From a virus: a stretch of 27,904 bases of DNA. Shown here in pieces: positions 1,940 to 14,188 of this stretch. Each line of letters opens with the position of its first letter. Within the stretch, counting starts at the first letter, position 1. A program made the position numbers and the translations under genes. The notes under the pieces are model-generated. The model did no database searches, had not been told where the DNA came from, and saw only the letters and a program-made list of their open reading frames with translations. The DNA is taken from positions 1 through 27,904 of the IMG/VR virus record IMGVR_UViG_3300023178_000209; one strand, written 5' to 3'.

Positions 1940-1990
1940 CATCCTATAAACATATTGATATTCCAATGTCTTGAGATTGGTGGGCAATTC

Positions 1991-2002
1991 TTCAAAAACC
2001 AC
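1991..2002 (+). promoter_or_regulatory. Candidate TATA-like box for the terminase gene
   Basis: The sequence TTCAAAAACC lies 30 to 21 nt before the GTG at 2021, the same spacing seen at stronger boxes in this window. A TTGATATT element (1955) and a degenerate TTGAGATT (1971) lie upstream. The box is weak, so this is a low-confidence call that mainly serves the choice of start. Confidence 0.3.
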
Positions 2003-2020
2003 AGCACACCAGCGTGGTGC

Positions 2021-3538
2021 GTGGTGGAAGACTTCCAACGGCTCTCACAGCAACAGGCGAGGGAGATTGCCCTGTTCCCCGACCGCTGGAGTTCGTATTT
2101 TCGCACGATTGACGGGAAGGCGTTCCGCTTGGATGCTCGCCCATACCTTGAGGAAGTGTATCGCCACTTCTCCGCCACCAGCAAGAACTCCGCCACGAAG
2201 GTCATCGTGTTGAAGTGTTCTCGGAAGGTTGAGAAGACCGAAACCATCTGCAACATTCTGCTGTACGCGTTGCTCAATATCCCGTATTTCAACGCAGTCT
2301 ATACCGCGCCCCGCCAGCCCCAAGTGAGCCGATTCGTTGAGGAACGATTCAACGGTGCGATGATGTCCAGCGTGAACAACGGATGCCTGTTGAAGCAACG
2401 AGTCAAGTCATCTGTGAGCCACCAAACCTTTGATGTCGGTGCAAGGTCGCTGAACCACTTCTATGCCTATTCCAATTGGGGAGATGCTCACGGTCTGCTG
2501 GGGATTGAGGCTGACCTGTGTTGCATTGACGAATATCAAGACAGCGACCCCGATGTGCTTCCGATGCTGATGGAGATGCTCGCTCAATCGGACTACAAAT
2601 GGGTCATCGTCAGCGGGACAGCCCGTGAGCAAGGCTCGGAGTTTTGGAGGCTGTGGAACACCTCCACGCAAGCCGAGTGGGATGGTGAGAAGTGGATTCA
2701 CAAAGAGGCAGAAGCCCCGAACATCATCGGGTATCACATCACCCAATTGATGCACCCCGACATCACGACCGAAGACATTGAACAAAAGCGAATCACATAC
2801 ACGCCCCGCAGATTCGCGAACGAGGTTCTCGGTGAGTTCTTTTCGGGTTCAGCCAAACCGCTGACTCTTGACCAAGCCTTGACGATTATTGAGCCCGATA
2901 TGGACATCGTGGATTCAGTCGTTCCACCCAGCGAATCGTTCATCGGAATTGATTGGGGGTTGGCGACAACCATCGTGGTCATGGACAAAGACGGCAACAT
3001 TCTCAACGCCATGAAGGTGGAATCGCGTGGAGAAGACGACTTTGATGAAGTCGCCATCATCAAGGACATCATTCTCCGATACAACGCTGTCCAAGTGGTC
3101 TGCGACATCGGCTACGGTGCGAGGCAAGTCCGTGAACTCCAGCGTGAGTTCGGAGAGCGTGTGAAGTCGTGCTATTATGCGAGCCGACCGATGACTCCGT
3201 TTGAATATAAGAAACGGGACTCCAATCGCAACCTCATTTTCATGGCTGTCGTGGACAGAACCACATACCTTGAGCAAACGATTGAGGCAATCAAGAACGG
3301 TGAGATTCGCTTGCCTTTCAAGGACAGAAGGCTGGAGTGGGTGCTGGATGAGTTCTGTGCAATCAATTCGTCAGCCGAAGCAGATATGCGGTCGGGTCGG
3401 CAGATTCGTGGACAGCAATTGACCAAATACGGTCGCGATGGCGATGACCACGCTCTCCACGCTCTCCTGTATGCGAGGCTTGCCCATGAGATGAATGACG
3501 ATGGTGGGCTTCCGACCATGCGAACCTTCGGAGTTTGA
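2021..3538 (+). CDS. terL: Terminase large subunit (packaging ATPase and nuclease)
   Basis: This is the motor that cuts and pumps viral DNA into the prohead through the portal. Counting from GTG 2021 (505 aa), an ATPase Walker A-like motif SRKVEKTE sits near residues 67-74, Walker B with catalytic Glu (CCIDEYQD) near 167-174, and a coupling motif IVSGTA near 196-201. The RNase H-like nuclease follows with acidic residues in FIGIDWG (about 311), VVCDIGYG (about 362) and GDDHA (about 475). Walker A has Glu where Gly is usual (R-x-V-E-K-T), a variant seen in other terminases. The frame continues up to a TTG at 1955, but that TTG lies inside a promoter-like TTGATATT element, so I prefer GTG 2021, which has an AAACC box 25 nt upstream. 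The 22-residue longer form remains possible. Confidence 0.92.
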   Translation: MVEDFQRLSQQQAREIALFPDRWSSYFRTIDGKAFRLDARPYLEEVYRHFSATSKNSATKVIVLKCSRKVEKTETICNILLYALLNIPYFNAVYTAPRQPQVSRFVEERFNGAMMSSVNNGCLLKQRVKSSVSHQTFDVGARSLNHFYAYSNWGDAHGLLGIEADLCCIDEYQDSDPDVLPMLMEMLAQSDYKWVIVSGTAREQGSEFWRLWNTSTQAEWDGEKWIHKEAEAPNIIGYHITQLMHPDITTEDIEQKRITYTPRRFANEVLGEFFSGSAKPLTLDQALTIIEPDMDIVDSVVPPSESFIGIDWGLATTIVVMDKDGNILNAMKVESRGEDDFDEVAIIKDIILRYNAVQVVCDIGYGARQVRELQREFGERVKSCYYASRPMTPFEYKKRDSNRNLIFMAVVDRTTYLEQTIEAIKNGEIRLPFKDRRLEWVLDEFCAINSSAEADMRSGRQIRGQQLTKYGRDGDDHALHALLYARLAHEMNDDGGLPTMRTFGV

Positions 3539-4652: not shown

Positions 4653-4924
4653 GCATGACCGAGAAAGACCCAACGCTCGCTTGGGTTCAAGCCATCCATC
4701 GCGACCTCACTACGCTCAAGGACAACCACTTGGCTCATGTGGATGCTGACCTCCAAATGATGAAGCGGGACATCGCTGAAATCAAGGAAGACTTGGCCGA
4801 AGTCAAGCCAATGATGGACAACATTCGTGTGTTCTCCAGCAAGTTCGGTCGGAAGATGCTCATGGTCTTATTGATTTCAATATCATTCACCATCGGCGCA
4901 CCGATAGGAATGGAAACGCTTTGA
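4649..4924 (+). CDS. Coiled-coil protein with C-terminal membrane anchor (XhlA-like topology)
   Basis: The start overlaps the previous stop and has a GGAGG site at about 4640-4645. The 91-aa product has a heptad-rich N-terminal part (MKRDIAEIKEDLAEVK near 38-53) and one hydrophobic segment at about 69-87. This is the plan of XhlA-type phage proteins that act beside holins in host lysis. Similarity is at the level of length, coiled coil and anchor, not of a proven motif, so the lysis role is an inference. Confidence 0.6.
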   Translation: MSMTEKDPTLAWVQAIHRDLTTLKDNHLAHVDADLQMMKRDIAEIKEDLAEVKPMMDNIRVFSSKFGRKMLMVLLISISFTIGAPIGMETL

Positions 4925-4930
4925 AACCCA
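4919..4930 (+). promoter_or_regulatory. Leaderless promoter box CTTTGAAACCCA
   Basis: AAACC begins exactly 25 nt before the ATG at 4949, as at other genes here. The box overlaps the stop codon of the upstream gene. It is weaker in A/T than most copies. Confidence 0.4.
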
Positions 4931-4948
4931 ACCGCACATTGACGGTTC

Positions 4949-5176
4949 ATGCCTCGCAAGTTCGTTGAGTGTCCCGTGTGCAAACATCAACGCTGGACAG
5001 TCGCTAAACGACCCAAGTGCAAACGGGAACTACACAAAGGAACACTTGACCCCGAACCACGAATGTTTGAAGTCCCGTTCAACGAAACGCCCGATGAATA
5101 CACCATCTCGGACACCCCGCCAGCACGAAAATCACCAAATTGGTGGGAAAATCATCTTGATAGACCGAAGCATTGA
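4949..5176 (+). CDS. Small zinc-ribbon-like protein
   Basis: A 75-aa protein beginning with a Cys-Pro-x-Cys motif (CPVCKHQRW, residues 8-16) and a further Cys near 24 in a basic stretch. It resembles a degenerate zinc ribbon that lacks a clear fourth ligand. The C-terminal half is acidic then aromatic (NWWENH). Function unknown. The TGA stop lies inside the next promoter element (TTGATATA at 5173), so gene end and RNA promoter are interlocked. Confidence 0.6.
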   Translation: MPRKFVECPVCKHQRWTVAKRPKCKRELHKGTLDPEPRMFEVPFNETPDEYTISDTPPARKSPNWWENHLDRPKH

Positions 5177-5185
5177 TATACCCCC
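5157..5185 (+). promoter_or_regulatory. Twin-element promoter of the putative structured RNA
   Basis: TTGATAGA at 5157 and TTGATATA followed by CCCCC at 5173 are spaced 16 nt apart, as in the twin promoters at 14159 and 14572. The -30 rule derived from neighbouring genes puts the transcription start at 5203, exactly the first base of a 7-bp hairpin. The nearby ATG at 5196 is only 23 nt away and does not fit the rule. Confidence 0.6.
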
Positions 5186-5202
5186 ACCTGCTGTCATGGA
5201 TT

Positions 5203-5840
5203 GTTGGGGCAACAACCCCGACCGAAGCGATACCTCCCGATGCGAGTCGGGGGGTGAATTGGAAACACAGGATGGCGAGCAACGCCCCTTAGCAGACAGG
5301 TGCAACGCACCTTGCAGACAGGGACAACGCTCTCATCCCATACGATACAGGTTGAATGTTAGCCCTGCCCGACCCCAATGTTTTGATGCGACACTCGCTT
5401 CGGTGAGTCCCTCCACACTTCTTGGGCATACGGTAAGAATCCCCTTGCCTCCCTGTCGTGTGTCATCGGCTCAATCGGTCGGGGAAACCCGACTCCCTCA
5501 AGAGTGTGGCTGTGGCTGACCAAGTGTAAGGGCGGGGAGAGATACCCCGTGAACCTGCTTGCGAAGGTAAAGGCTCGTAAGGCAAGGCTAAGGTGATATT
5601 AGTGCTGGGAAGGTTCGCCCCAGCCCGATGTTGTGTTTCCTCCCAACCGCCCAAACATACACTCAAAGTCAATTCAAGAGCGTAGTGGGAAAACGAGTCA
5701 TGTCGTTCTTAACCGCTTGGATGGAGAGGAAGGAGGTTCATAGCCCGCCAATCCCGAAAAGGTTGGATGGGGGTTGGTTTCGCAGTCCCACCCCAATGCC
5801 TTTGGGCAATACGGTGGTTTCGGTCGGCTGTTGCCTCAAC
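5203..5840 (+). ncRNA. Candidate large structured non-coding RNA between terminase and portal
   Basis: No credible protein gene lies here, but strong local hairpins do: 5203-5209/5216-5222; 5233-5240/5247-5254 (extendable by two pairs); 5298-5303/5307-5312; 5393-5398/5403-5408 closed by a UUCG tetraloop; 5478-5483/5488-5493 closed by GAAA; 5533-5537/5545-5549; 5558-5562/5582-5586; 5604-5609/5619-5624; 5676-5682/5704-5710; 5748-5753/5761-5766; 5797-5800/5805-5808. The first stem begins at the predicted transcription start. Reading frames across it have atypical Cys/Pro/Arg/Ser-rich composition unlike the acidic viral proteins. I recognise no known class (not tRNA, tmRNA, RNase P, SRP or a self-splicing intron). 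The 3' end is uncertain: it may stop near 5624 or run towards the portal promoter at 5844. A role in packaging is only a guess from position. Confidence 0.6.
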
Positions 5841-5861
5841 ATCGTTAAAAACGGCACAGCC
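5826..5861 (+). promoter_or_regulatory. Portal promoter box inside an inverted repeat
   Basis: GTTAAAAACGGC starts at 5844, exactly 30 nt before the ATG at 5874. It is enclosed by an inverted repeat, GGCTGT (5826-5831) with ACAGCC (5856-5861), extended inward by GCC (5833-5835) with GGC (5853-5855) across a one-base bulge. The overlap suggests that an operator or the end of the upstream RNA controls the portal promoter. Confidence 0.45.
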
Positions 5862-5873
5862 CAACGAACATTC

Positions 5874-8264
5874 ATGTCGGAGAGGCGTAGCCGTTTTCCA
5901 TTTTGGCGAAGGCGAGGTTCGCCCGAAGACGCTAACCGCATGACCGAGATGTTCAACCAGCCCGAATCGGAGTTCCGCTGGGATGGGAAGACGCTCGCAT
6001 CAATGTCCCGAATCGGCAATTCCACGAAGACGGGCAAGAGCGTGAACGGCTTTGAACCGATTGGCGACATGGACTTGATTCGTGAAATCTCGCTCAAGAA
6101 CGAGGTGGTCAATGCGATTCTCCGCAGAACCGTTGATGACACGCTGGGCAACGGCTACGAGTTTGTTCTGCCCGATGGGAAGGAGGAAGGAGATGCTGGT
6201 CAATTGGCGAGGGTGCGTGAGTTCTTCCGAGCCCCCAACCCCGATGACAACGGGGATGAGTGGCTTGAATCCCTCATCTATGACCTCCAATTGTTCGGTG
6301 ATGCCTATTTGGAACTTGACGGCTCGGAAGACAAACAGATGAGCGATGACGGAACGAAGTGGACATACGGTGGCGAATTGGTGTCAATATGGAACATTCC
6401 CACCGAAACGATGAAACTGCTTCCAGCGAACAAACGCCCAGCCCCACCAGCGATGGCGTATGTGCAGAAAATTGACGGCTTGAAGCGTGAGTTCTCATCC
6501 AGCAAAATCCTCCATGTGTCCAAGTTCAAGCATGGCCGAGCATACGGCACATCGCCCATCGTTCCCCTGCTGAATGTGATTGCTGGGCATCTCAACCTGT
6601 CAAATTATCTCAACGAACTCTATACGGGAACGCTTCCCAAGACCATCCTCAATGTCGGGGACATCTCCAATGGCGAGATGAAAGCGATGCTCTCACTCCT
6701 TGAACAGCAATTGGCTGGAGGCAAGTCGCCCTTCGGTTTGGTCGCTGTGAACGGAGGAACGGGGTTCAATATGCACAAACTGTTGGACTCAACGAGGGAA
6801 GGCGCGCAATTGGACTTGATTCACTATTATCGCGAGGAAATCTGTGCGGTCTTCGGCATCCCACCCATGAAATTGGGCTGGGTGCAGACGGGGAAGATGT
6901 CCAACCCCGAACAGCAATTGGATGCGTGGTATGATGTCATTGAATCCTTCCATAACCGAATTGAATCGCTCATTAACAACCGTATTCTTCCCCTATTGGA
7001 CATCACCGATTGGGTCTTCAAGTTCGTGTCCATCCGACCAAAGCGGGACAATGAGATAGCCGAAACGCAATCGCGTCAAGCACAGGCAATCTCCAATCTC
7101 CGACAGGAAGGTGTCATCTCCATCAACGAGGCTCGGAACTTCTTGGGTCTTGAGCGACTTGACTTGGCTGACGCAGACGACCCGATGTTCCTGTCGCCCA
7201 AGTTATCCATCAACAAAGGCAAGGTCAATGGCGGTGGCGAGGAAACGGCGGATTCCAATGACTCATCTCCATTGACACCTCCATCTCTTGCTGAATTGTT
7301 CCCCCCACCCGAAGCACCCGACAACGAAGGTGCGAAACTTGGCGGGATTCCTCCATGCACCGTTCCTGTTGATATTGAACTCAATAGCAACACAACGGGG
7401 CTCATGGCGAATCGGAGAATGAAGCAGAACGATGAATACGAGGCTCTCATCACCACGAACTCGCTGGAACTTCTCGCTCAATTCACCGACCTTCAAAGTC
7501 AGTTCGCCGTTGATGTCTTGGATGCCCTTGACAAAATGTTCGCAGACGGAGATGAAGCGGTGCAGATGCCGAATGTGGATTTGAAGTCGGTGCGAGCATA
7601 CAGACGCAAGGCGGATATTGACCTCAATCAAATTGAATCAGCCATCGTTGAGATTGACACCCGAATCGCTGACACGATTGGTCGTCAAAACTTGATGGCG
7701 ACAGCGGTTTTGACCGATTCGTTTGGCGAGTCGCTGGAACTGACGCTGGGTGGAACTGCGATTGATGTTGCACTCAACGCAGACGACCTCTCGGCCATCG
7801 CTTATTGGAATGGTCGCTGGACACTCCCTGCCTTAAGAAACACGCTGGGGGCTCACAGGAACGCCCTGCTCGGTGTCTTTGAGGCTATGGTGGGTCAAGG
7901 GCAGTCTTGGCGATGGGCGAAGACGGAGATGCGTTCTTTGATTGACCCAACGGGGTCGCGATACCCAGCATATTGGTATGAACGCATCGCCCGAACCGAA
8001 ACCCGAAGGGTCGTGGAGAACGCTCACCTATCGGGCTTGAGGAAGGCTGGCTTCCAAAAGGTTGAGCGAATCGTGGTCGTTGATGAACGAACCGACCGTG
8101 ATTTGTGCGCGCCCTTTGAGAACGCCATTTACCCAATCGCTGAATCGCGAAGTGTTGTTCCAGCACACCCGAATTGCCGATGCACATTCGTTGCGTATGC
8201 TGGCGACAAAGAGCCTATTGACTCCGATACGATTCTCGTTCCCGATGTGGAGGGCTCGGAATGA
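5874..8264 (+). CDS. Portal protein fused to a Mu gpF-like minor head domain
   Basis: The 796-aa product forms the ring through which DNA enters and leaves the head. The first roughly 470 residues have portal features: an N-terminal basic segment, a central body with ILHVSKFKHGRAYGTSPI, and IPPMKLGWVQ followed by a long helix. After an acidic, proline-rich linker the last part matches the Mu gpF/SPP1 gp7 pattern: ERIARTETRRVVENA, then DERTDRDLC and the hallmark HPNCRC near the end. Fusion of portal and this internal head protein is known in some tailed viruses. The frame is open back to 5628, but ATG 5874 has a box 30 nt upstream and the extension has odd composition. Its stop overlaps the next ATG. 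Confidence 0.9.
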   Translation: MSERRSRFPFWRRRGSPEDANRMTEMFNQPESEFRWDGKTLASMSRIGNSTKTGKSVNGFEPIGDMDLIREISLKNEVVNAILRRTVDDTLGNGYEFVLPDGKEEGDAGQLARVREFFRAPNPDDNGDEWLESLIYDLQLFGDAYLELDGSEDKQMSDDGTKWTYGGELVSIWNIPTETMKLLPANKRPAPPAMAYVQKIDGLKREFSSSKILHVSKFKHGRAYGTSPIVPLLNVIAGHLNLSNYLNELYTGTLPKTILNVGDISNGEMKAMLSLLEQQLAGGKSPFGLVAVNGGTGFNMHKLLDSTREGAQLDLIHYYREEICAVFGIPPMKLGWVQTGKMSNPEQQLDAWYDVIESFHNRIESLINNRILPLLDITDWVFKFVSIRPKRDNEIAETQSRQAQAISNLRQEGVISINEARNFLGLERLDLADADDPMFLSPKLSINKGKVNGGGEETADSNDSSPLTPPSLAELFPPPEAPDNEGAKLGGIPPCTVPVDIELNSNTTGLMANRRMKQNDEYEALITTNSLELLAQFTDLQSQFAVDVLDALDKMFADGDEAVQMPNVDLKSVRAYRRKADIDLNQIESAIVEIDTRIADTIGRQNLMATAVLTDSFGESLELTLGGTAIDVALNADDLSAIAYWNGRWTLPALRNTLGAHRNALLGVFEAMVGQGQSWRWAKTEMRSLIDPTGSRYPAYWYERIARTETRRVVENAHLSGLRKAGFQKVERIVVVDERTDRDLCAPFENAIYPIAESRSVVPAHPNCRCTFVAYAGDKEPIDSDTILVPDVEGSE

Positions 8265-9844: not shown

Positions 9845-9870
9845 TATTCACCGAACCATTGATATAGGGG
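9841..9870 (+). promoter_or_regulatory. Twin-element promoter (TTGATATT / TTGATATAGGGG)
   Basis: Elements at 9841 and 9859 are spaced 18 nt apart; the second begins 30 nt before ATG 9889. An in-frame ATG at 9871 lies too close to the box to be the start of a transcript made from it. Confidence 0.6.
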
Positions 9871-14144: not shown

Positions 14145-14188
14145 CCTTGCTCATCATGTTGATATTGCGAAGCATTGATATACCCCCT
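14145..14188 (+). repeat. Promoter repeat, copy 1 of 2 (44 bp)
   Basis: This segment is identical over 44 bases to 14558-14601, by eye. It contains the whole twin promoter (TTGATATT at 14159, TTGATATA at 14175) and 14 bases upstream. The two copies bracket the gene at 14205-14555. Confidence 0.85.
14159..14187 (+). promoter_or_regulatory. Twin-element promoter of the 14205 gene
   Basis: TTGATATT and TTGATATA are 16 nt apart; the second starts 30 nt before ATG 14205 and is followed by CCCCC. Confidence 0.65.

Follow-up and report, generated by a model that had tools for sequence, protein, structure and literature searches.

A candidate family of structured noncoding RNAs in magrovirus-like tailed viruses

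What is encoded in the gap between the terminase and portal genes of this virus? The window (the whole stretch of 27,904 nucleotides analysed, IMG/VR record IMGVR_UViG_3300023178_000209) has the gene order terminase, portal, protease and capsid genes. The terminase (1955-3538, + strand) is a large subunit of the ordinary type. The portal (5874-8264, + strand) has a C-terminal Mu-F-like domain and matches Phage_portal PF04860 and PHROG portal profiles. Between it and a small ORF (4949-5176), which is zinc-ribbon-like as judged by eye, about 700 bases hold no credible gene. A preliminary description had placed a large structured RNA in this gap and had guessed at a link to packaging or head assembly.

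Folding energy and coding content of the gap

The 638-nt RNA (5203-5840, + strand) has a minimum free energy of -256.7 kcal/mol, compared with -227.6 ± 7.2 kcal/mol in 20 dinucleotide shuffles (z = -4.1). None of the shuffles folded as well, so the proposed structured RNA passed this energy comparison. The stems named in the proposal (5203-5209/5216-5222, 5393-5408 and 5478-5493) are real. Homologues are present at the loci L007 and L004 of related viruses, and the consensus fold has a z of -4.7 (see below).

The gap had also been described as lacking a credible protein gene, and every reading frame is lost in these two relatives. The frame starting at ATG5196 (107 aa) was rejected as a gene: both L007 and L004 have ATA at this position and an in-frame stop seven codons on. 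A second candidate, reading from 5628 on into the portal, was rejected as well, being interrupted by stops in both relatives. The longest ATG frames inside the RNAs of the window and its relatives are short, and none is common to them. In the ungapped 3' block, the differences between window and L007 are spread over all codon positions.

The claim that the RNA belongs to no known class agrees with the Rfam searches. They gave nothing at gathering scores in the window or ten related loci, and no match for 4900-6000 even at E up to 5. Introns, riboswitches, RNase P and tmRNA found no Rfam or ARAGORN match in the RNA, and ARAGORN detected no tRNA in the window. Annotated phages queried with the RNA region gave no match. 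The structured region 5203-5840 is real, beyond chance, and very probably a noncoding RNA. Its predicted first base is G5203; the 3' end was placed from the terminal helix described below.

Promoter and distribution in related viruses

The promoter of the RNA consists of a BRE-like element and a TATA box, ACCGAA-NNA-TTGATATA (5164-5180, + strand). The exact motif recurs at 9850, and looser versions of the ACCGAA-N3-TTGATATA box are located at 14166 and 14579. The window virus and its relatives have 17 TATA-type boxes with an ORF-starting ATG 10-41 nt downstream. In 16 of the 17, the ATG lies 21-23 nt after the box, and the promoters are for this reason leaderless and of archaeal type. The sole exception is the box of the window RNA, whose only ATG is found at 15 nt. 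Counting 22/23 nt from this box leads to G5203, the first base of the first stem. The spacing count bears out the earlier prediction of a start at 5203 and of a wrongly spaced ATG5196. The RNAs in L007, L014, L017, L055, L062 and L065 have equal promoter spacing and no ATG at the start point.

Leaderless promoters with a TTGATATA box and an ATG 21-22 nt downstream are present in the window at 9850, 14166, 14579, 16423 and 25634; those at 14166 and 14579 have TGCGAAGCATTGATATACCCCC in common. The box spacing is useful for correcting gene starts in this virus group. Upstream of the portal, L006 and L017 have a TTGATATA promoter on the opposite strand (L006 5829, - strand). It is directed away from the portal, stands back to back with the portal-side promoter and has no ATG at 21-23 nt.

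Over the compared region, the window is identical to longer and shorter contigs, one of them of 78.3 kb (IMGVR_UViG_3300023110_000023). This contig encodes a family-B DNA polymerase (PolB), an RFC-like clamp loader and an XPD-like helicase; within the annotated phage set, the PolB is nearest to haloarchaeal tailed viruses. Magroviruses of Poseidoniales carry genes for PolB, portal, terminase, capsid and prohead protease (PMC10160649). Based on the PolB, the RFC-like clamp loader and the leaderless TATA promoters, the virus can be read as an archaeal, magrovirus-like tailed virus, probably of marine archaea.

L007 and L004 are divergent homologues obtained by portal searches, with about 70-85% DNA identity in blocks. 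Relative to the window, they retain the 5' and 3' blocks, and the middle is exchanged or shorter. Pattern scans, first for promoter and start motif and then for the second hairpin, revealed the 5' domain in L054, L055, L060, L065 and L062. Four contigs of 30-82 kb have a single match each to the promoter with start motif. For the 5' domain, a covariance model (R1, 5196-5254) scored 78-90 bits in the window, L004, L007, L054, L055, L060, L062 and L065, and at most 18 bits in the next best match; the model was built from members, so its score separates members from other loci and is not an independent test. Strong R1 matches were confined to these eight loci and copies of them, and 56 further terminase loci gave weak matches only. 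A pattern of the 3' block matched only in the window virus, L004 and L007. A portal profile found no relative in a genome collection of sequenced hosts. Some candidates were rejected: the single match of a pattern for the second hairpin in that collection, in Amycolatopsis, was read as chance, and pattern matches L067-L076 and L077-L147 were dismissed as chance after inspection.

Common to the family are the TATA promoter, a start about 22 nt on, a first hairpin P1, the sequence CCGAAG and a second hairpin P2. The body of the RNA is rebuilt between viruses, and lengths range from 198 nt (L065) to about 760 nt. The window RNA looks like a member of an undescribed RNA family with a single copy per virus.

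Structural elements and their conservation

The family-wide constant part is the first ~52 nt, comprising P1, ACCGAAG and P2. P1 is a 7-bp hairpin at the transcript start (5203-5209/5216-5222, + strand) and is kept with changed letters in relatives: UUCGGG/CCUGAA in L007 and L004, UGGGGG/CCCCCA in L062, UUGUCG/CGACAA in L017 and GUAGC/GCUAC in L005. L014 also seems to retain it with different letters. The joining strand ACCGAAG (5221-5227, + strand) is conserved across the family. Its CCGAAG is present in the window, L004, L005, L007, L054, L055, L060, L062 and L065, and missing from the short pre-portal versions L014 and L017. P2 is the hairpin CCUCCCGA-UGCGAG-UCGGGGGG (5233-5254, + strand), which is covered by model R1. 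A pair-count tool applied to five sequences found one P1 pair changed on both sides. Taken alone, the 5' domain would prove little, because 109 of 500 shuffles reach its pair count.

Two long-range pairings involve the same 5' region. The closing helix PX joins 5218-5228 with 5817-5827 (+ strand) by 11 bp in the window and by 9 bp with different letters in L007 and L004. In shuffled 3' ends, none of 500 was as good for the window (p = 0.004 for L007, 0.014 for L004). Within the last 60 nt of L062, L055, L060, L065 and L005, PX was not above shuffles; it is therefore claimed only for the window, L007 and L004. In the terminal helix, the first and the last 12 bases of the RNA are mutually complementary: 5829-5840 (+ strand) forms 12 bp with 5203-5214, UGUUGCCUCAAC with GUUGGGGCAACA (p = 0.002), and the equivalents in L007 and L004 are CGGGCAACACC/GGUGUUGCCCG. 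A pairing as strong occurred in 0.2-0.4% of shuffled 3' ends. The terminal helix and P1 are mutually exclusive. RNA position 4 changes from G in the window to C in L007 and L004, and its partner changes to match, from C to G, in P1 as well as in the terminal helix. Both alternatives are thus preserved in two lineages. In the window subfamily, P1 may form during transcription and the terminal helix may replace it once the RNA is complete.

Further elements are located between these ends. A 3' block (5649-5783, + strand) has 94% mean column identity in the subfamily of window, L007 and L004. It holds two hairpins: 5692-5696/5703-5707 changes from AACGA/UCGUU in the window to ACCGA/UCGGU in L004, and 5748-5753/5761-5766 from CCAAUC/GGUUGG to CCGUCG/CGACGG. 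The variable body of the window RNA has a UUCG-capped hairpin, ACUCGC-UUCG-GUGAGU (5393-5408, + strand), and a GAAA-capped hairpin, GUCGGG-GAAA-CCCGAC (5478-5493, + strand), both read from the sequence. The latter is paired in the consensus of window and L007, with an exchange of C-G to U-A.

RNAalifold gave this consensus an energy of -128.1, compared with -102.8 ± 5.4 in column shuffles (z = -4.7, none of 60 as good). It has 15 pairs changed on both sides and no broken pair. With L004 added, z was -3.8 against column shuffles. A body consensus of L054, L055 and L060 reached z = -7.9, with none of 200 column shuffles as good. In the same type of control, the consensus fold was not significant for the middle of the body (about 5265-5630; z = -0.3), and z was -1.0 for the 3' block by itself. 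The column shuffles do not preserve dinucleotides, and the covariation comes from few independent lineages, two in the window type and about three in the L054 type. Folding of single sequences gave z values of -3.5 (L007), -5.4 (L004), -5.9 (L055) and -7.1 (L065). As judged from the alignments, divergent relatives preserve the fold by compensating changes.

The conservation of the body bears on a cis-acting function of the start. In the put antitermination RNA of phage HK022, a viral transcript starts with two hairpins, which render the polymerase resistant to termination. A put-like element would agree with a conserved part of exactly two hairpins at the transcript start and a body free to vary. 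However, the body itself retains structure via compensating changes, and in the L054 group there is no downstream gene to benefit. The window RNA also differs from put by its long structured body and by the lack, in some viruses, of a gene downstream. This explanation is very unlikely.

Genome position, possible function and known RNAs

The RNA is located just before the portal, on the same strand, in the window, L004, L005 and L007. This is not the case elsewhere. In L062, RNA and portal are on one contig, at 70.9 kb and about 46 kb; the RNA lies between a gene that is tail-hub-like by eye and a 2409-aa gene, on the strand of the latter. In L054, L055, L060 and L065, the RNA is found next to a tail gene and a 666-aa gene. 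It starts between the diverging 666-aa gene and a convergent gene, which is YqbQ-like in L065, and runs into the 3' end of the convergent gene.

These positions do not favour the packaging or head-assembly link guessed at in the preliminary description. An RNA acting like the pRNA of phi29 would suit the place of the RNA in the window virus and the relatives closest to it, where terminase and portal flank it. The two are also alike as structured viral RNAs, and the one described here is near packaging genes in one lineage. Yet in L062 and the L054/L055/L060/L065 group the 5' domain is far from the packaging genes, and the RNA is missing from many viruses in which terminase and portal are in the same order. 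The window RNA is also much larger than pRNA, its position is not tied to packaging genes and the terminase of the virus is an ordinary large subunit. A pRNA-like role is highly improbable.

The position before the portal would also fit a leader: the RNA would be the structured 5' end of the portal-operon mRNA and would regulate, in cis, how the head genes are translated or transcribed. The RNA precedes a same-strand gene in the window and L062 viruses. In addition, the portal of L014, L015, L017, L018 and L020 is preceded by a promoter and a noncoding segment of 130-330 nt, and some of these segments open with the same ATAGATTG start. Several observations count against a leader. A probable promoter box of the portal itself, TTAAAAAC (5845-5852, + strand), ends 21 nt before the portal ATG at 5874. 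TTAAA boxes in the virus group cluster 22-25 nt before ATGs, and relatives without the RNA keep AATTAAAC or TTAAAC at portal spacing (TTAAAC in L168). Genes in these viruses are leaderless, and the two ends of the RNA pair with each other (5203-5214 with 5829-5840) ahead of the portal box. In L062 another gene follows, and in L054, L055, L060 and L065 the RNA cannot be a leader because there is no same-strand gene downstream. A leader is unlikely. The portal box and the varied loci argue for an independent noncoding RNA instead, which we regard as likely.

Other candidate noncoding units were observed in the virus group. A further TATA promoter, TTCATATA, lacks a start codon and is located downstream of the RNA in L055 (from 1679, - strand), L054, L056, L058 and L065. 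The second unit, which it opens, also appears to be noncoding and has a hairpin motif of ~50 nt, CGAGAAUCCC..AGGGCxAAGUUCUCG, in two tandem copies in L054 and L055 and one in L065. Promoters without ATG at the leaderless distance are also present in L181 (7421-7620), L183 (7031-7250) and L190 (8358-8735), followed by foldable noncoding stretches unrelated in sequence to the window RNA. The L181 stretch (7451) follows the terminase, has z = -2.2 and opens with GUAGCAG, which pairs with CUGCUAC; the L183 promoter at 7031 also follows the terminase, and L190 (8388) has z = -2.4. The short structured pre-portal segments of L014 (4684), L015 (4830), L017 (4867), L018 and L020 have a different promoter, TTCTTATA. 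Across L014-L020 these segments of 130-330 nt have z values from -1.5 to -2.9 (L016 -0.3). The L014 segment seems to retain P1 and P2 and lacks CCGAAG. Taken one by one, the L181, L183, L190 and L014-L020 segments are weak cases, and they may represent different RNAs.

What could an independent RNA do? A decoy or inhibitor of host defence or RNA-binding proteins, with fast-changing arms as the mark of an arms race, would be in line with one copy per virus at shifting positions. L004 and L007 would suit it as well, since their RNA bodies differ despite near-identical flanks. But the analysis revealed neither a target nor a connection to defence. In a search for antisense targets in the virus's own genome, the longest complementarity to the RNA was 14 nt, on the opposite strand. 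A decoy is quite unlikely.

We hold with moderate confidence that 5203-5840 is an independently transcribed virus noncoding RNA of an undescribed family of archaeal (magrovirus-like) tailed viruses. For its function we favour, by analogy, a trans-acting scaffold of the GOLLD/ROOL type. The RNA would act in trans. The constant 5' domain would be the part that binds or assembles, with a protein of the virus or its host, or further copies of the RNA, as the partner. The variable arms, held by the closing helix, would carry the lineage-specific part, as in GOLLD and ROOL.

GOLLD and ROOL are large ornate RNAs of phages and prophages with unknown function, and ROOL forms RNA nanocages (PMC12286853). 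The window RNA shares with GOLLD its large size, ornate fold and viral origin, and in both noncoding RNAs one part is conserved and another variable (PMC12286853). In GOLLD, however, the 3' region is constant and the 5' region variable, whereas the 5' region is constant in the window family. GOLLD is often near tRNA genes; the window RNA has no neighbouring tRNA and belongs to an archaeal-type virus. ROOL is similar in length (about 640-660 nt), multi-branched and virus-encoded (PMC12286853). The window RNA differs in not being beside tRNAs, and it matches neither Rfam covariance model. It resembles GOLLD and ROOL in kind and is a member of neither.

In the literature searched, no report of a noncoding RNA in Poseidoniales viruses and no large structured RNA in archaeal viruses was found. 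We know of no large structured RNA of the GOLLD/ROOL sort in archaeal viruses. Tentatively, archaeal viruses could have in this family their first class of large ornate noncoding RNAs: trans-acting, with a constant 5' assembly domain, interchangeable bodies and a 5'-strand switch, and possibly forming RNA-only or protein-RNA assemblies. The large structured RNAs of phages, GOLLD and ROOL, are abundant and unexplained, and the window family offers a handle on their role. Partners can be sought with the constant 52-nt domain as bait, and the natural versions of 198 to about 760 nt show which parts are dispensable.
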